Assembly (NCBI RefSeq): GCF_001553685.1 | Contig: NZ_CP014264.1 | Coordinates: forward strand, 1,186,001-1,250,000 | Origin: Streptococcus sp. oral taxon 431 | Lineage (GTDB): Bacteria; Bacillota; Bacilli; Lactobacillales; Streptococcaceae | Reading direction: 5' to 3' | Length of the DNA: 64,000 bases | Part shown: positions 22,172 through 29,271 of the stretch, in pieces | How the letters are laid out: each line of letters opens with the position of its first letter | How positions within the stretch are numbered: position 1 is the first letter of the stretch | Notes under the pieces: model-generated | Database searches by the model: none | What the model saw: the letters and a program-made list of their open reading frames with translations, nothing else | What the model was told of the DNA's origin: nothing | Made by a program: the position numbers and the translations under genes

Positions 22172-23047
22172 TCATCTGACAATATCTTTATACATGTCTG
22201 GTCTTCTATCTCTAAAGAGACCCCAATTCAGGCGCTCATTTGCTCCTTTGTCAAGGTCATAAGTAGTTAAGAGAATTGCTTCATCTTGTCTTTCGGCTTG
22301 AGTCAAAATAGCTCCTGTTTCATCGGTCATAAAGGATGAACCGTAGAAGTTAAGACTGGAACTTTGTCCCCCATTTTCCTCACAAGGTGAGACTTCTTCC
22401 AAACCATAACGATTAGCAGCAATAACTGGCACAATATTTGCTGCTGCATGCCCTTGCATAGTACGTTGCCAATGACCACAACTATCTGTATCCAAAATAG
22501 GCTCTGAACCGATGGCAGTTGGATAAAAGAGCAATTCTGCACCATTTAGAGCAAGGCAACGGGCTGTTTCAGGAAACCACTGGTCCCAACAGATGCCAAT
22601 ACCAATCTTGGCATAGCGAGTATCCCAAACTTTGAAGCCTGTGTTTCCAGGAGTAAAATAGAACTTTTCTTGATAATAATGGTCATCTGGTATGTGTGTT
22701 TTTCGATAAACGCCTAGTACTTCTCCATCTGCATCAATGACAGCAATCGAATTGTATAAGACATTGCCATCTTTTTCATAGAAACTGATCGGTAAAACGA
22801 CCTTTAGCTCTTTGGCAATTCCTTTGAAATGCTGAATAGCTGTATTTTCAGACACAGACTGGGCATACTGGTAGTAGTCATACTGACGTTCCTGACAGAA
22901 ATAAGGACGTTCAAATAATTCAGGCAAGAGAATAATTTGGGCTCCTTGCTCCGCAGCTTGTCGAACCAAACGTTCAGCTGTTTGGATATTAGTATCCACA
23001 TCCTTAGCGCATTGCATCTGAATGGCTGCAACCGTTACATTTCTCAT
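22172..23047 (-). CDS. aguB: N-carbamoylputrescine amidase
   Basis: 291 aa nitrilase-superfamily enzyme. Catalytic triad: E43 (LLPELFERP), K116 (YRKTHIPDDHYYQEKFYF) and C153 (GICWDQWFPE). It hydrolyses N-carbamoylputrescine to putrescine, CO2 and ammonia, completing the agmatine route. The specific blocks PDDHYYQEKFYFTPG and GCDQWFPE-type WDQWFPETAR match AguB. Last gene of the operon, 9 nt after aguA. Confidence 0.96.
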   Translation of the reverse strand: MRNVTVAAIQMQCAKDVDTNIQTAERLVRQAAEQGAQIILLPELFERPYFCQERQYDYYQYAQSVSENTAIQHFKGIAKELKVVLPISFYEKDGNVLYNSIAVIDADGEVLGVYRKTHIPDDHYYQEKFYFTPGNTGFKVWDTRYAKIGIGICWDQWFPETARCLALNGAELLFYPTAIGSEPILDTDSCGHWQRTMQGHAAANIVPVIAANRYGLEEVSPCEENGGQSSSLNFYGSSFMTDETGAILTQAERQDEAILLTTYDLDKGANERLNWGLFRDRRPDMYKDIVR

Positions 23048-23056
23048 CTTTTTCTC

Positions 23057-24142
23057 CTATTCTGGAATTTGTTGGGTAATACAGTGGATATTTCCACCAC
23101 CTAAAAGAATATCTCTTGCAGGAATTCCGACAACTTCACGGTCTGGGAAACACTGGCTCAGAATATTCAAGGCAACTTGATCGTTTACATCTTGAAATTG
23201 CGGCACTAATACAGACTTATTAGCAATGTAAAAATTTACATAGGAAGCTGCTAAACGTTCACCGGCATAGCGCTCCTCTTCGCCCTCTTCATAAGTATAG
23301 CCTGGTAAATCCTCTTCGGTAACTACTTGATGAATAGCTGGGATTGGAAGTTTATGAATAGTGAAACTCCGGCCTTTTGCATCAGTTTCCTTCTCTAAGA
23401 GAGCTAAATCAGCTGCAGACATGGCATACTGAGGATCGTCTTGGTCGTCCGTCCAAGCTAAAACAACTTCTGCAGGGCCTACAAAGGTAGCAACATTATC
23501 GACGTGTTCATTTGTCTCATCTTGATAAATACCGTAAGGCAACCAAATGACTTTTTCGGCACCAAGGCTCTCTAGTAAGGTCTTTTCAATCTCCTCTTTA
23601 GTCAGATGAGGATTACGACCCGGACTGAGCAAACAGCTTTCTGTGACAAGAATCGTTCCTTGACCGTCACTGTGTATAGCTCCACCTTCCAGTACAAAAG
23701 GTTTGGCATCATAAACAGGTATCTCTAAAACTTCTGCAAAGCGGCTGGCTACTTGGTCATCTGCTTCATAGTCTTGGTAGAGACCGTCAACAGCACCACC
23801 CCAGGCATTGAAAGACCAATCTACCGCTAACTTTTCCCTTTTATCATTAAGAAGAATGGTCGGACCTGTATCACGAGCCCAGGCATCATTTGTCGAAATA
23901 TCTAAATAAACAACCTTGTCTCCTAGATAGGATTGCGCTTCAGATAGATAGTCCTCCTCAACCAAAAGGTAGACTGTTTCCCCTTGAGCAATCGTTTTGA
24001 TAATCTGGCTAAAAGCTTTTTTTGCAGCCTTTCCTTGAAAAGGCCAAGACCCTGGTCGAGTAGGCCATATCATGAGAGTCCCATGATGGGGTTCATACTC
24101 TGCAGGCATACGATAACCTAATTTCTTTGGACTGTCCATCAT
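23057..24142 (-). CDS. aguA: Agmatine deiminase
   Basis: 361 aa member of the guanidino-group-modifying superfamily. Catalytic Cys354 is in [14 protein letters not shown]. Other blocks are [29 protein letters not shown] and [13 protein letters not shown]. It converts agmatine to N-carbamoylputrescine and ammonia. Overlaps the end of nspC by 4 nt and feeds the product to aguB. Confidence 0.96.
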
Positions 24143-25266
24143 GATAATCTCTCCTTAAAGTCTTGGTAGCCAAATGCTTTAACTAGACTGCACTCACCCT
24201 CTTTATCCATGAGATACAAACTTGGAAGTCCAATCCCGTTAAAGGTATTATTTTTGACAAAGGAGTAGATTGCCATGTCTTCAAAATAGAGGCGATCACC
24301 GATTTCAATCGGTTTTTCAAAGCTATAATCCCCAATGACATCCCCTGTTAGGCAAGTATTTGAAGAGAGTCTATAAGTATAAGGTTTTTCTTGCGCTTCA
24401 AATCCATCTCTCAATGGGGGGCGATAAGGCATCTCAAGGACATCTGGCATATGACAACTTGCTGAAGCATCTAGCACCAAGGTCTCAATCCCGTTTTCAA
24501 CAATATCCAAGACTTCTGTAGCTAGATAGCCCGCATTAAGGGCAATAGCTTCTCCAGGTTCAATGTAGACGTCAAGGTTATAGATTTCTCGTATTCTTTT
24601 AATCTCAGAAATCAGCAAGTCCACATCATAGTCATCTCTCGTAATATGATGACCACCACCCATATTGAGCCATTTAACTTGATGCAAATAGGCTCCAAAC
24701 TGCTCTTCTACTGCTTTCAAAGTCGTTTGTAAATCATCTGCCCCCTGCTCACAAAGAGTATGAAAATGAAGCCCGTCAACCAAGTCCAGCAAATCACTAG
24801 GTATCTTGTCTGAAGTCACTCCAAAACGAGAGCCAGGAGCACAAGGATCATAAAGCGCGTGGTCACCCTGCGTTGAACATTGAGGATTGATGCGCAGACC
24901 CACACTAATACCAACTTCACGACAACGTTGACCATATTTTCGAAGTTGTCTCTCTGAGTTAAAAACAATATGATCTGATATTTGTAGTAGCTCTTCCATA
25001 TCTGATTCCTTGAAAGCTGGCGCAAAAACATGGACTTCCCCAGGGAACTCTTCTCTAGCTAACTTAGCCTCATAGAGTCCACTAGCCGTCGTACCTGACA
25101 GATACTGACTAATCAAAGGATAGGTTTTATAGAGGGAATAAGCCTTTTGAGCCAGTAGAACCTTACAGCCGGTTTTTTCTTGAACCTCTTGCAGAATGCT
25201 ACAATTTTCTTCTAGTTTTGCTAAATCAATGACGTAAGCTGGTGTTGGTACTTGTTCTAACTTCAT
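24139..25266 (-). CDS. nspC: Carboxynorspermidine/carboxyspermidine decarboxylase
   Basis: 375 aa from the ATG at 25266 ([14 protein letters not shown]). Fold III PLP decarboxylase: the PLP lysine lies in LLAQKAYS near residue 40, and [14 protein letters not shown] and [15 protein letters not shown] are family blocks. It decarboxylates carboxyspermidine to spermidine (or the nor-homologue). The start overlaps the stop of the dehydrogenase gene by one base (TAATG), so the pair forming the alternative spermidine route is translationally coupled. Confidence 0.94.
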
Positions 25267-26525
25267 TAGTCCACCATTTGTGGGTTTTCTACCACAACCC
25301 ATGGCAAACCGTATTTATTTAAAGCTTCCATGAATGGGTCTGGATCCAACTCTTCAAGGTTATAAACTCCTGGTTGTTTCCATGTACCATCCATCACTAA
25401 TTTTGTCCCAATCATGGCTGGAACACCTGTTGTATAAGAAATGGCTTGTGAACCAACCTCTGCATAGCACTCCTGATGGTCGCAAACATTGTAGATGTAG
25501 ATGGTCTTTTCAACGCCATCTTTGATACCTGTAAAGATACATCCAATATTAGTTTTACCAACAGTACGTGGTCCAAGGCTGGCAGGATCTGGAAGCAAGG
25601 CTTTCAAGAATTGGATTGGTACGATTTCTTGGCCGTTGAAGTTAATAGCATCTGTACGAAGGAGCCCAACGTTTTCCAAGCATTTCATATGCGTTAGATA
25701 AGATTGGCCAAAAGTCATAAAGAAGCGAATGCGTTTAACTCCTGGAATATTCTTTGCTAATGATTCGATTTCTTCATGGTGGAGGAGATACATGTCTTTT
25801 TGACCAACTTGAGGGAAATCATACTCACGTTTGATAGACATGGCTTCGACTTCTACCCATTTTCCATCTTCCCAGTAAGAACCTGGTGCAGAAACCTCAC
25901 GTAGATTGATTTCTGGGTTAAAGTTTGTCGCAAATGGATAACCGTGGTCACCACCATTACAGTCTAAAATATCGATATAGTGGATTTCGTCAAAGTAATG
26001 TTTGAGTGCATAAGCTGAAAAGACGCTGGTTACACCTGGGTCAAAACCAGATCCAAGTAGAGCAGTCAAGCCTGCTTCTTTGAATTTATCTTGGTAAGCC
26101 CATTGCCATGAGTAGTCAAAGTAGGCTGTAAAACCAAGTTCCTTACAACGTTTCTCATAAATAGCACGCCATTCAGGGTCTTCTGTGTCCTCAGCCTCAT
26201 AGTTGGCAGTATCGATATAGTGGACACCTGTTGCCAAACAAGCATCCATGATGGTCAAGTCTTGATAAGGCAAAGCTACGTTCAAAACAGCTTCTGGTTT
26301 GTAGCTTTCAATCAAGGCAATCACTTCTTCTACCTTGTCAGCGTCAAGAGCAGCTGTCTCAATCTTAGTATTTGTTTTACCTTCTAATTTAGCCTTCAAG
26401 TCATCACATTTTGACTTGGTACGGCTAGCAATCATAATCTCTTTAAAAGTTTCGCTATCTTGGCAAATCTTTGAAATAGCAACTTGGGCAACGCCCCCAC
26501 ATCCAATAACTAATAAACGACTCAT
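25266..26525 (-). CDS. Saccharopine dehydrogenase-family carboxy(nor)spermidine synthase
   Basis: 419 aa. N-terminal Rossmann motif VIGCGGVAQVAISK, then the DTANYEAEDTEDPEW and GFDPGVTSVF blocks typical of carboxynorspermidine dehydrogenase. It condenses putrescine (or diaminopropane) with aspartate semialdehyde and reduces the imine using NADPH. Often annotated lys9. Next to nspC it makes spermidine independent of S-adenosylmethionine. ATGA overlap of 4 nt with speE upstream. Confidence 0.92.
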   Translation of the reverse strand: MSRLLVIGCGGVAQVAISKICQDSETFKEIMIASRTKSKCDDLKAKLEGKTNTKIETAALDADKVEEVIALIESYKPEAVLNVALPYQDLTIMDACLATGVHYIDTANYEAEDTEDPEWRAIYEKRCKELGFTAYFDYSWQWAYQDKFKEAGLTALLGSGFDPGVTSVFSAYALKHYFDEIHYIDILDCNGGDHGYPFATNFNPEINLREVSAPGSYWEDGKWVEVEAMSIKREYDFPQVGQKDMYLLHHEEIESLAKNIPGVKRIRFFMTFGQSYLTHMKCLENVGLLRTDAINFNGQEIVPIQFLKALLPDPASLGPRTVGKTNIGCIFTGIKDGVEKTIYIYNVCDHQECYAEVGSQAISYTTGVPAMIGTKLVMDGTWKQPGVYNLEELDPDPFMEALNKYGLPWVVVENPQMVD

Positions 26526-27382
26526 TTTTTTCCTTCCTCTTCTTCTAAAATGTCTTCTACATACTTAGGCAACATAAAGGCACCAATATGCAAGTTTGCA
26601 GTGTAGTATTCCGTAAATAACTGGCGTTTTTTCCAGCCTTCCTTGTCAAAATCTTTGACAGGGTGATATTTTTTCGATGCAAATCCAAACAACCAATAGC
26701 CAGCAGGACTAGTTGGGATATGGGCCTGGTAAACCCGGCTGATTGGAAAGGCTTGATTGACCTTGCGGTGCATACTACGGCAAGCCGACTCATCTTCGTC
26801 AAAGAAGGGACTACCATGCTGATAGATCATGATTCCGTCTTCTTTCAAGGCTCTATAGCTATTGCCGTAAAATTCCTTGGTAAAGAGCCCTTCTGTATGT
26901 CCAAATGGATCTGTCGCATCGTTGATGATGATGTCGTAATCATCTTCACAGTTTCTCAAAAATCTCAGTCCATTTTGGTAGTAAATGGTGACGCGAGGGT
27001 CATCAAGTCCTGCTGCAAAGTCTGGAAAATACTCTCGACAAACCTCAACCAGCATCTCATCAGGTTCTACAATATCGATTTGTTCCAATTCAGGATAGAG
27101 AGTTAATACTTGGGCAACACCACCGTCACCACCCCCAATAACCAAGACTTTCTTTGGATTGGGATGGACAGCCATAGGAACGTGAACTGTCATTTCGTTG
27201 TAGACAAAGTCATCTGCATCTGAGAATAAGACATGCCCATTTAAAATCAATATTTTCCCAAAAGCTGGTGTATCTAATACTTCAATATCCTGCCATTCAC
27301 TTTTGCCAGCGTAAAGTTGTTTAGCAGTTCTAAGCGACAATTTCACATCTGGAGTATGAACTTCAGAAAACCATAAATCCAT
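26522..27382 (-). CDS. speE: Spermidine synthase (aminopropyltransferase)
   Basis: 286 aa. The decarboxy-SAM-binding motif is VLVIGGGDGGVAQVLTLYP, the acidic loop is IINDATDPFGHTEGLF, and N-terminal QDIEVLDTPAFGK-like residues (WQDIEVLDTPAFGKILILNG) fit the family. It transfers an aminopropyl group from decarboxylated SAM to putrescine. No speD (SAM decarboxylase) is visible in this window, so its donor must come from elsewhere. It abuts the speA stop codon. Confidence 0.95.
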   Translation of the reverse strand: MDLWFSEVHTPDVKLSLRTAKQLYAGKSEWQDIEVLDTPAFGKILILNGHVLFSDADDFVYNEMTVHVPMAVHPNPKKVLVIGGGDGGVAQVLTLYPELEQIDIVEPDEMLVEVCREYFPDFAAGLDDPRVTIYYQNGLRFLRNCEDDYDIIINDATDPFGHTEGLFTKEFYGNSYRALKEDGIMIYQHGSPFFDEDESACRSMHRKVNQAFPISRVYQAHIPTSPAGYWLFGFASKKYHPVKDFDKEGWKKRQLFTEYYTANLHIGAFMLPKYVEDILEEEEGKK

Positions 27383-28837
27383 CTAGTTCTCCTTTCTTTC
27401 AATAACATTGATGTGATTGACCTCTGGATCTTCCGTTCCTTGGAGGGAACAACCACGTTCCTTTGCAAATTTGATATAATCGACAATTTCTCGTGTAATC
27501 CGTTCACCTGGCGCTAGGATTGGAATTCCTGGAGGATAGCACATGACAAATTCCCCGCAGACTTGCCCAACTGATTCGTCCAAGGTTAAGCTTCTTCTCT
27601 CTGCATAGAATGCTTCCTGAGGAGATAGCACTAATTCAGGTTGGATGTATTCTCCAGCAATCAAGTCCTTCCCATCTCGTGAGTAGAGTCTCTTGATATC
27701 TGCCAAAGCACCTACCAAGCGCTCAATGTCTTGAATGCGGTCACCAATTGAAATGTAGGCCAAGATATTCCCGATATCACCAAACTCAATCTGAATGTCA
27801 TATTCATCTCGTAAGAGATCATAAACTTCAATCCCTGTTAGACCAATACCCTGAGTGTAAACTGACAACTTGGTTACATCAAAATCACAAACCGATACAC
27901 CATCTACTAGCTCTTTTGAGTAAGCATAGTAGCCACCGATGGCATTGATTTCACGACGAGCATACTCAGATAACTCAATAACTTTCTCAAAGGACTCCTT
28001 ACCACGAAGGGCTAAGTTTCTACGAGAAACATCTAGACTAGACATTAGCAAGTAGGATGCTGATGTTGACTGTGTCAGATTAATAATCTGTCGTACATAC
28101 TCAGGATTCATCTGATTGCCAACTAAAAGAAGGGAACTTTGAGTCAAGCTGCCACCGGACTTATGCATGGATACAGCTGACATATCCGCTCCTGCGTCCA
28201 TAGCAGACAGAGGAAGTTTATCTGTAAAGTGCAGATGAGCACCGTGGGCTTCATCTACTAAGACTTTCATTCCTGCAACGTGAGCCATCTCTGTTAACCC
28301 CTTAAGATCTGAACAAATCCCATAGTAGGTTGGATTGTTTATTAGGATAGCCTTGGCATCCGGATGGTCCTTAATAGCTTGAGCCACACGATCATTTTCT
28401 AGCCCCAAAGCAATACCGATTTTAGGATCCACACTCATCTCGATATAGATGGGTATAGCACCACACAAAACAAGGGCGTTGATAGCTGATTTATGTACGT
28501 TGCGCGGAAGAATAATCTTATCTCCAGCTTTACAAGTGGAGAGAATCATGGTTTGAACAGATGAAGTTGTCCCGCCAATCATTAAAAAGGCATGAGCAGC
28601 ACCAAATGCTTCTGCTGCTAGTTCTTCTGCATCTCTGATAATCGAAATGGGATGTCCTAGATTATCCAAAGGTTTCATAGAATTGACATCAATACCAACG
28701 CATTTTTCACCTAAAAGTTCGACCAACTCTGGGTTCCCACGGCCACGCTTATGACCTGGCACATCAAAAGGTACAATCCTTTTCTTTCGTAACTTAACTA
28801 ACCCCTCATAAATGGGAGCTTGGTTCTGATTTAACAT
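27383..28837 (-). CDS. speA: Arginine (lysine/ornithine-family) decarboxylase, fold I
   Basis: About 484 aa from the ATG at 28837 (MLNQNQAPIYEGLVKLR); an in-frame GTG extends to 28870 but includes the binding site. Orn/Lys/Arg decarboxylase: PLP lysine in SMHKSGGSLTQSS, substrate region VDEAHGAHLHFT. As first gene of an operon with aguA and aguB, arginine to agmatine is the expected reaction. AAAGGAG is 12 nt from the ATG, unusually far; a 3-codon frame (ATG TCT TTA TAA) sits between and overlaps the start. A structured RNA with a terminator precedes the gene. Confidence 0.93.
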   Translation of the reverse strand: MLNQNQAPIYEGLVKLRKKRIVPFDVPGHKRGRGNPELVELLGEKCVGIDVNSMKPLDNLGHPISIIRDAEELAAEAFGAAHAFLMIGGTTSSVQTMILSTCKAGDKIILPRNVHKSAINALVLCGAIPIYIEMSVDPKIGIALGLENDRVAQAIKDHPDAKAILINNPTYYGICSDLKGLTEMAHVAGMKVLVDEAHGAHLHFTDKLPLSAMDAGADMSAVSMHKSGGSLTQSSLLLVGNQMNPEYVRQIINLTQSTSASYLLMSSLDVSRRNLALRGKESFEKVIELSEYARREINAIGGYYAYSKELVDGVSVCDFDVTKLSVYTQGIGLTGIEVYDLLRDEYDIQIEFGDIGNILAYISIGDRIQDIERLVGALADIKRLYSRDGKDLIAGEYIQPELVLSPQEAFYAERRSLTLDESVGQVCGEFVMCYPPGIPILAPGERITREIVDYIKFAKERGCSLQGTEDPEVNHINVIERKEN

Positions 28838-28905: not shown

Positions 28906-28932
28906 AAAAAAGAGCAGGTTGGCACCTGCTCT
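28906..28932 (-). terminator. Terminator of the structured RNA, 70 nt before speA
   Basis: AGAGCAGGT-TGGC-ACCTGCTCT, a 9-bp stem with a run of T on the minus strand. I see no strong separate promoter between it and speA, so speA may need read-through. Confidence 0.9.
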
Positions 28933-29236
28933 ACAATCTACTGACGTGTTTATGTTTGTTTCTTTTGAGTATGTCTGTTCCTGATGTTTCCTAACTCTCT
29001 AGTAGCAAATATTACGTACTTTATTGATCGTTTCACAAGATGACGTGTGCTTTCACCACACTAACAAATGTATACGAATTAGAACTAATGTTCTAACATC
29101 AACTTATAAAAGTAGGCTTTTAACCCTATCAATAATGTGGCTTTTCAACCACGCTTCGGCATTCAACCCTGCCTGTCCGTAGGCATTTTTTACTCGGGTT
29201 TATATTTGCTAGAAAACATCATCTCATTTTCTAAGC
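28906..29236 (-). ncRNA. Structured leader/small RNA upstream of speA, about 330 nt
   Basis: Transcribed from the promoter at 29243-29271 and ending in a strong terminator. A 10-bp closing helix pairs 29202-29211 with 29003-29012. Inside it an 8-bp helix pairs 29128-29135 with 29021-29028, and AAGUUGAUGU pairs with ACGUCAUCUU (9 of 10). Local hairpins include GUGGUU-GAAA-AGCCAC, GCCU-N6-AGGC, UUAGAAC-AUUA-GUUCUAA, GUGUG-N7-CACAC and UAAAAG-CCUA-CUUUUA. AACCC can pair with either of two GGGUU copies, one a possible pseudoknot. No ORF with a binding site is visible. It is not recognisably tmRNA, RNase P RNA or SRP RNA. A leader regulating speA or a free small RNA are both possible. Confidence 0.7.
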
Positions 29237-29242
29237 TTCATT

Positions 29243-29271
29243 ACTATATCATGTTTTCAGAGACTTGTAAA
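29243..29271 (-). promoter_or_regulatory. Promoter of the structured RNA (and speA operon)
   Basis: Minus strand TTTACA (29266-29271), 17-bp spacer, TATAGT (29243-29248), with an extended -10 (TGA before the box). Start predicted near 29236. Confidence 0.8.

Follow-up and report, generated by a model that had tools for sequence, protein, structure and literature searches.

A structured RNA ahead of polyamine genes in Streptococcus and other Firmicutes is probably an unrecognized polyamine-sensing gene switch

The only accepted polyamine riboswitch in the literature searched is a rare variant of the SAM-I class (PMC10853860, in the sections available). Among pneumococcal transcripts a small RNA, F59, also known as SN20 and srn235, was placed between SP0915 and SP0916 (PMC3395615), and srn235/F59/Spd_sr49 was later tabulated as a 327-nt sRNA candidate of strain TIGR4 with matches in 385 genomes (PMC12323649). 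In the available part of that table footnotes mark two other entries, but not srn235, as cis-regulators. SP0916 is the pneumococcal orthologue of SpeA, an arginine decarboxylase that prefers arginine as substrate (PMC7990898), and SP_0916 is absent from the main text of PMC6296669. Within the available portions of the open-licence literature no paper was found that describes the RF02440/F59 RNA as a riboswitch or as a leader of polyamine genes. The Rfam alias "ldcC RNA" suggests that the gene link apparently had been noticed by someone already.

The locus described here lies on the minus strand of the window, the whole 64,000-nt stretch of Streptococcus sp. oral taxon 431 that was analysed, to which all coordinates refer unless a locus label is given. 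The leader is followed by six polyamine genes in the order speA-speE-CANSDH-nspC-aguA-aguB:

29243..29271, minus strand: predicted speA-leader promoter, with -35 TTTACA at 29271-29266, a 17-nt spacer and extended -10 TG.TATAGT at 29248-29243
28906..29236, minus strand: leader RNA in its terminated form, ~327-331 nt, bounded by promoter and terminator in the sequence; corresponds to F59/srn235/SN20/Spd_sr49
28906..28932, minus strand: intrinsic terminator AGAGCAGGU-GCCA-ACCUGCUCU plus U-run, read from the sequence
27383..28837, minus strand: speA, Orn/Lys/Arg decarboxylase family; closest NCBIfam model LdcC, with a score well under the cut-off
26522..27382, minus strand: speE, spermidine synthase; model score above cut-off
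25266..26525, minus strand: CANSDH, carboxynorspermidine synthase/dehydrogenase; NF043000, E 1.1e-122, 410 bits, below the cut-off of 800
24139..25302, minus strand: nspC, carboxynorspermidine decarboxylase; TIGR01047 above cut-off
23057..24142, minus strand: aguA, agmatine deiminase; model score above cut-off
22172..23047, minus strand: aguB, N-carbamoylputrescine amidase; model score above cut-off

The extended -10 promoter of the original prediction was confirmed from the sequence (TTTACA-17-TATAGT with the extended TG), and the best promoter-like match in an 85-nt stretch spanning the RNA start scored at least 10/12 at 62 of the 68 distinct loci from streptococci. Transcription of the leader probably starts near 29236; the TIGR4 counterpart of the terminated RNA is 327 nt long (869478-869804; PMC12323649). 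The strong terminator that had been proposed before speA was also verified as a hairpin with a U-run, the end of which lies 69 nt from the speA ATG at 28837, and the hairpin is present in 27/27 rows of the streptococcal alignment A1, with L047 lacking the U-run. The 5′ arm GAGCAGG of the terminator (28906-28932) is nearly invariant across the streptococcal alignment. A core segment, GAGAG(U)UAGG at 28990-28999, mimics this arm such that CCUGCUC could pair with either; by eye, the core segment GAGAGUAGG resembles the terminator arm and the tail ACGUCA resembles P5. The distance from the U-run to the ribosome site was 29-60 nt in 65 of 68 distinct streptococcal gaps, the others measuring 2, 88 and 91 nt. 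Between terminator and speA the highest-scoring promoter match reached 5-9/12 in 66 of 67 gaps, with a score of 9 in 12 of those, and 10 in the remaining gap. Gap matches are weaker than those around the RNA's own start, where the scanned stretch is somewhat longer, and 13/67 gaps, including that of the window, hold a match of at least 9/12, which makes an internal speA promoter possible.

The prediction of a highly structured RNA was borne out by folding, the 366-nt sequence giving -94 kcal/mol compared to -72.6 ± 5.0 for shuffled versions (z -4.3; 0/100 as low). The comparative evidence for structure is far stronger than the folding energy. The helices of the conserved core are as follows:

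28980..29222, minus strand: conserved core, covariance model R1 with 242 positions, 58 pairs and nine helices; R1 score 262.8 bits
29210..29220, minus strand: P1a 5′ strand GAUGUUUUCUA, by eye; overlaps P1b by UA and lies outside R1, its exchanges uncounted
28983..28993, minus strand: P1a 3′ strand UAGGAAACAUC, by eye
29202..29211, minus strand: P1b 5′ strand UAGCAAAUAU; two-sided changes in 8/8 modelled pairs
29003..29012, minus strand: P1b 3′ strand AUAUUUGCUA, partner of 29202..29211
29165..29200, minus strand: P2, 29200-29196 with 29169-29165; two-sided changes in 3/4 pairs, 91.9% of cells paired
29184-29171, minus strand: P2b hairpin GCCU-ACGGAC-AGGC inside P2; two-sided changes in 4/4 pairs
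29137..29152, minus strand: P3 hairpin with GAAA-type loop; two-sided changes in 5/5 pairs
29128..29135, minus strand: P8 5′ strand UUAUUGAU, partner 29028-29021; 100% paired, nearly invariant, one two-sided pair
29114..29126, minus strand: P4 hairpin; two-sided changes in 1/5 pairs, in 18 sequences
29098..29111, minus strand: P5 5′ strand UUUUAUAAGUUGAU; 99.4% paired, zero two-sided changes
29031..29044, minus strand: P5 3′ strand GUCAUCUUGUGAAA; complementarity to the 5′ arm of the terminator in most lineages, not significant in L001
29078..29097, minus strand: P6 hairpin, variable; two-sided changes in 4/6 pairs, letters absent in 30/50 sequences
29045..29061, minus strand: P7 hairpin; two-sided changes in 3/5 pairs

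The 10-bp long-range helix that had been predicted was recovered exactly as P1b (29211-29202 with 29012-29003), enclosing 209 nt. Two further predicted helices had been described without coordinates: the nested 8-bp helix probably is P8 (UUAUUGAU/AUCAAUAA) and the "9-of-10" third helix probably is P5. Covariation was assessed in the family alignment A6, which comprises 55 selected sequences (50 distinct; 22 streptococcal and 33 distant), the distant set being 33 of the 38 then known, without L202, L204, L208, L209 and L210. A6 was fitted to R1 and hence is biased towards the model. Shuffled and slid controls gave the following comparison: 98.3% of cells pair compared to 37-44% when slid; compensatory two-sided changes occur in 29/58 modelled pairs compared to 14.1 ± 1.9 when shuffled (0/500 as high) and 6-14 when slid; and the covariation score is 0.260 compared to 0.113 when shuffled and at most 0.046 when slid. 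RNAalifold on the MAFFT alignment A1 found two-sided changes in 5/61 pairs, a low figure that arises partly because MAFFT slid the P1b strand of the pneumococcal group and A1 consists of streptococci only. Overall, P1b, P2, P2b, P3, P6 and P7 are supported by base exchanges and P4 by one strong pair. Both P5 and P8 are almost invariant, for which reason covariation cannot prove either, and these helices rest on conservation and folding. A putative pseudoknot, GAGU at 28997-28994 with ACUC at 28970-28967, was noted by eye from conserved bases.

Several streptococci carry enlarged leaders. In Streptococcus entericus (L075 5190-5580; also L097) an insertion of ~170 nt lies near P4, and P7 and the P1a end are altered with pairing apparently retained by eye; the seeming tandem copies in this species were rejected as one copy that is split by the insertion. 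The leaders of S. henryi and S. porci (L076, L077; L154, L147) have insertions of >100 nt, apparently in P3, and their R1 matches span 381 and 378 nt compared to 242 model positions. A leader peptide was considered and dropped, as sequences that have lost the start codon contain no equivalent of the short open reading frame seen in the pneumococcal group.

No Rfam family reached its gathering score within the window, and a housekeeping RNA was rejected given that no tRNA, tmRNA or gathering-level Rfam family was detected there. With the threshold relaxed, the strongest match in the window was to a 54-nt model of a catalogued sRNA:

29156..29201, minus strand: stretch covered by Rfam RF02440 (SpF59_sRNA, ldcC RNA); 28.5 bits, gathering 37.2, E 0.0053

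The statement that the RNA could not be assigned to a known class therefore required correction, since part of it is RF02440, with the window copy below the family threshold and several relatives above it; the Rfam search otherwise gave no confident match to a housekeeping RNA. Among streptococcal relatives L042 (39.8 bits) and L078 (40.2 bits) exceed gathering, L044 (21.2 bits) does not, and L076 has no RF02440 match. The family exceeded gathering in 4/4 distant Firmicutes loci and in 8/10 further ones (exceptions L202 and L211). Scores were 21-40 bits in other streptococci and 40-74 bits in other Firmicutes where matched. The hallmark of RF02440, a ACGGACAG-loop hairpin within the closing stem followed by UGCCGA, is present, and full-length R1 identifies the window RNA and its relatives as the same RNA despite the sub-threshold RF02440 scores. 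From sequence comparison, the "Streptococcus sRNA" of Rfam is a wider Firmicutes family.

A DNA search gave matches in 63/147 genomes, one of which (G140) was dropped as it spanned just 27 nt. An exact 23-base pattern from the leader, which is itself streptococcal and hence uninformative on distant relatives, occurred in 78 stretches of the named genome collection, every one with a Streptococcus title, and in zero viral contigs. With R1 the leader RNA was detected in 120/284 Streptococcus genomes, and SpeA at E 1e-60 or better in 119/284. The two occur together in 117 genomes, that is, in 117/120 carriers of the RNA and 117/119 carriers of SpeA, and in 117/117 the RNA precedes speA in the same orientation. 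The core end is 115-263 nt from the speA start codon (median 143; one outlier of 657). Three genomes have the RNA without speA: G015 has no SpeA match, but its contig ends beside the RNA; G109 has only a SpeA-like match of 24% identity; and in G269 absence was judged at 1e-60 only. At two loci, L042 (4900-5550) and L061, the RNA and terminator are kept without a close SpeA, and an IS200-type transposase reading frame follows in both species. A comparison of G109 and G269 for selection on the RNA after speA loss was set aside as uninformative, the alleles appearing recombinant. At L045 (G120) the speA match is shortened and in two pieces and the adjacent leader has lost conserved bases (138.7 bits), a state consistent with joint decay of both.

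Every Streptococcus genome with a close speA carries the leader RNA. The SpeA of G219 and G026, in which R1 did not detect the RNA, is only 63% identical, and the region upstream scores 9 bits with R1 but is a variant leader:

L217 2686-2985, plus strand, and L218 4605-4884, minus strand: variant polyamine leaders in two streptococci

The P2/P3 (5′) half of these leaders is replaced, and they end in a segment common to distant members, CUUGUGAAAACG..AAGAGUAGUAAAAGUAA..UGCUAUAUAGACUCU (P5/3′ segment). For the L217 leader no Rfam family matched with an E-value under 1. The operons also contain speE, speB and CANSDH. Judging from these sequences, the replaced half might reflect an altered ligand specificity.

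Outside Streptococcus R1 matched 40 genomes of 19 Firmicutes genera. The class search (398 genomes, Streptococcus included) contributed 27 further genomes in nine genera, the phylum search (299 genomes) 12 genomes in 10 genera with one genome common to both sets, and an additional search of 43 genomes two more; the order search of 395 genomes yielded 31 R1 matches, all in Streptococcus. The order, class, phylum, 284-genome and 43-genome searches used stricter filters that may have missed weak matches. The family is patchily distributed, and horizontal transfer may be involved. The R1 scores of 38 distant loci were 32-91 bits. The first recognized downstream gene, defined as a match to one of six polyamine-protein queries, was a polyamine gene in 40/40 distant loci, namely CANSDH in 29, SpeA in eight and SpeD in three. 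In the subset of 38 loci (CANSDH 29, SpeA six, SpeD three) this gene is on the same strand, 83-267 nt past the core; both loci from the 43-genome search have SpeA first. Simple lists of open reading frames, which for L192, L204 and L211 had an antisense or distant frame displacing the real gene, showed no other same-strand frame of 60 codons between leader and polyamine gene. At L172 a c-di-GMP-I riboswitch (2670-2761) is located ~1 kb from the leader RNA on the opposite strand. A leader that precedes differing first genes of a single pathway is typically one controlled by a metabolite. As in riboswitches, the RNA combines a covariation-supported domain with a position in cis before the genes of one pathway across diverse taxa.

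A terminator-like hairpin with a U-run precedes the gene in 38/38 distant loci, compared to 0.33 in the shuffled control. When windows were ranked by their pairing with the terminator 5′ arm, the P5 3′ strand fell within the top 5% in 39 of 56 leaders (31 distant and eight streptococcal; median 3.2%), the 56 consisting of 38 distant leaders and 18 streptococcal ones picked from 90 distinct. For the P5/P7 3′ strand, the terminator arms of 20/23 representatives beat 95% of their own shuffles; the exceptions were L001, which is the window lineage (0.18), L044 (0.28) and L202 (0.60), and of the four streptococcal representatives two passed, narrowly (0.047 and 0.033). Own arms averaged -12.3 kcal/mol compared to -10.8 kcal/mol for swapped arms, with 4/20000 permutations as good, although relatedness among the lineages makes the permutations not fully independent. 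In equilibrium folding before the 3′ arm, P5 reached at least 0.5 in 10/18 representatives with a value, and the antiterminator-like alternative did so in only 3/20, so that the alternative would require a kinetic step or one that depends on ligand.

We consider it about two-thirds probable that the leader is a transcription-terminating, riboswitch-like element of the polyamine operon under polyamine feedback. In such a mechanism the RNA transcribed from ~29236 would fold into the closed P1-P8 domain and then either terminate at 28906 or be read through into speA-speE-CANSDH-nspC-aguA-aguB. When polyamine is plentiful, most likely spermidine as the shared end product, direct binding would hold the domain closed and P5 would retain its 3′ strand, leaving the terminator arm free, and transcription would stop to give the known "sRNA". 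With polyamine scarce, the P5/P7 3′ strand would pair with the terminator 5′ arm and permit read-through, which would be the main source of speA mRNA; the same antiterminator presumably would operate in the window lineage. On a broader view, the chances are even that the RNA represents a large Firmicutes-wide polyamine riboswitch class that is unrelated in structure to the SAM-I type, has at least one natural variant, and has spermidine or a metabolite of the carboxyspermidine pathway as ligand.

Published physiology includes responses in both directions. A pneumococcal mutant in polyamine transport, which had lowered polyamine levels, showed a 16.9-fold rise of speA and a 14.4-fold rise of speE by qRT-PCR, a change that the RNA-seq data, in the part of the article available, did not show (PMC8540371); the transport inhibitor AMXT 1501 raised three biosynthesis genes 1.4-1.7-fold (PMC10887117), and arginine decarboxylase increased in a speE mutant (PMC7990898). 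Deletion of SP_0916 lowered polyamine-synthesis proteins and DFMO lowered biosynthesis-gene expression (PMC10887117), and a putrescine-synthesis deletion reduced expression of spermidine biosynthesis (PMC7990898). The latter three results oppose simple feedback, and polarity or other control might explain them.

The original prediction weighed a sensing leader against a free small RNA. The leader is strongly favored by gene association, because the RNA precedes speA in 117/117 cases and polyamine genes in 40/40 with first genes that differ by lineage, and we infer the sensing itself. That the functional product is instead the terminated 327-nt RNA, acting in trans from a gene that precedes speA by chance, is unlikely, even though the RNA has numbers in four sRNA series (F, srn, SN, Spd_sr) and still was among the sRNA candidates of 2025 (PMC12323649). 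Near-perfect co-occurrence with speA and polyamine genes downstream of all the distant loci would be unexpected for such an RNA, nor is it independent of its neighbor, speA lying just downstream in nearly all RNA-bearing streptococci. The lung fitness of 0.05 assigned to srn235/SN20 by Tn-seq (PMC3395615) agrees with a role in trans, but leader insertions may have polar effects on speA, and therefore the value fits either reading. Likewise G109 and G269 have the RNA with its terminator and no SpeA, but their alleles differ and each by eye resembles that of speA-carrying relatives, and thus persistence may be recent or recombinant. Moreover, the terminated product of a leader would be the very RNA catalogued as an sRNA, so that a single RNA can answer to both descriptions.

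Recognition of the leader by a ribosomal or polyamine-responsive protein, rather than by a small molecule, is similarly improbable: a ~240-nt core with unpaired blocks that do not vary could serve equally well as a protein-binding site or an aptamer, whereas the link to polyamine genes across 20 genera, Streptococcus included, points elsewhere without being direct counter-evidence. Membership of the known spermidine riboswitch class would account for the similar genes controlled (speE, speB and ldcC; PMC10853860), but is very improbable. The leader region has no SAM-I match even at E up to 5, none reached gathering in 12 related loci, and the arrangement of helices is unlike the four-stem SAM-I architecture described from 13 aligned representatives (PMC10853860).

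In its regulatory logic the feedback-controlled leader favored here would resemble the spermidine riboswitch, which likewise is found near polyamine genes including ldcC and is a terminator/antiterminator off switch (PMC10853860). The odc1 and potE motifs similarly are structured RNAs near polyamine genes, and are set apart from the leader RNA by their description in the available part of PMC8632094. With an RNA catalogued as a pneumococcal sRNA of low lung fitness now placed as a polyamine-operon leader, streptococcal polyamine homeostasis and the fitness effect credited to the "sRNA" become directly testable. Whereas RF02440 describes a 54-nt sRNA gene and is named for Streptococcus, the RNA examined here forms a ~240-nt domain of nine modelled helices and stands ahead of polyamine operons in 19 other genera as well.
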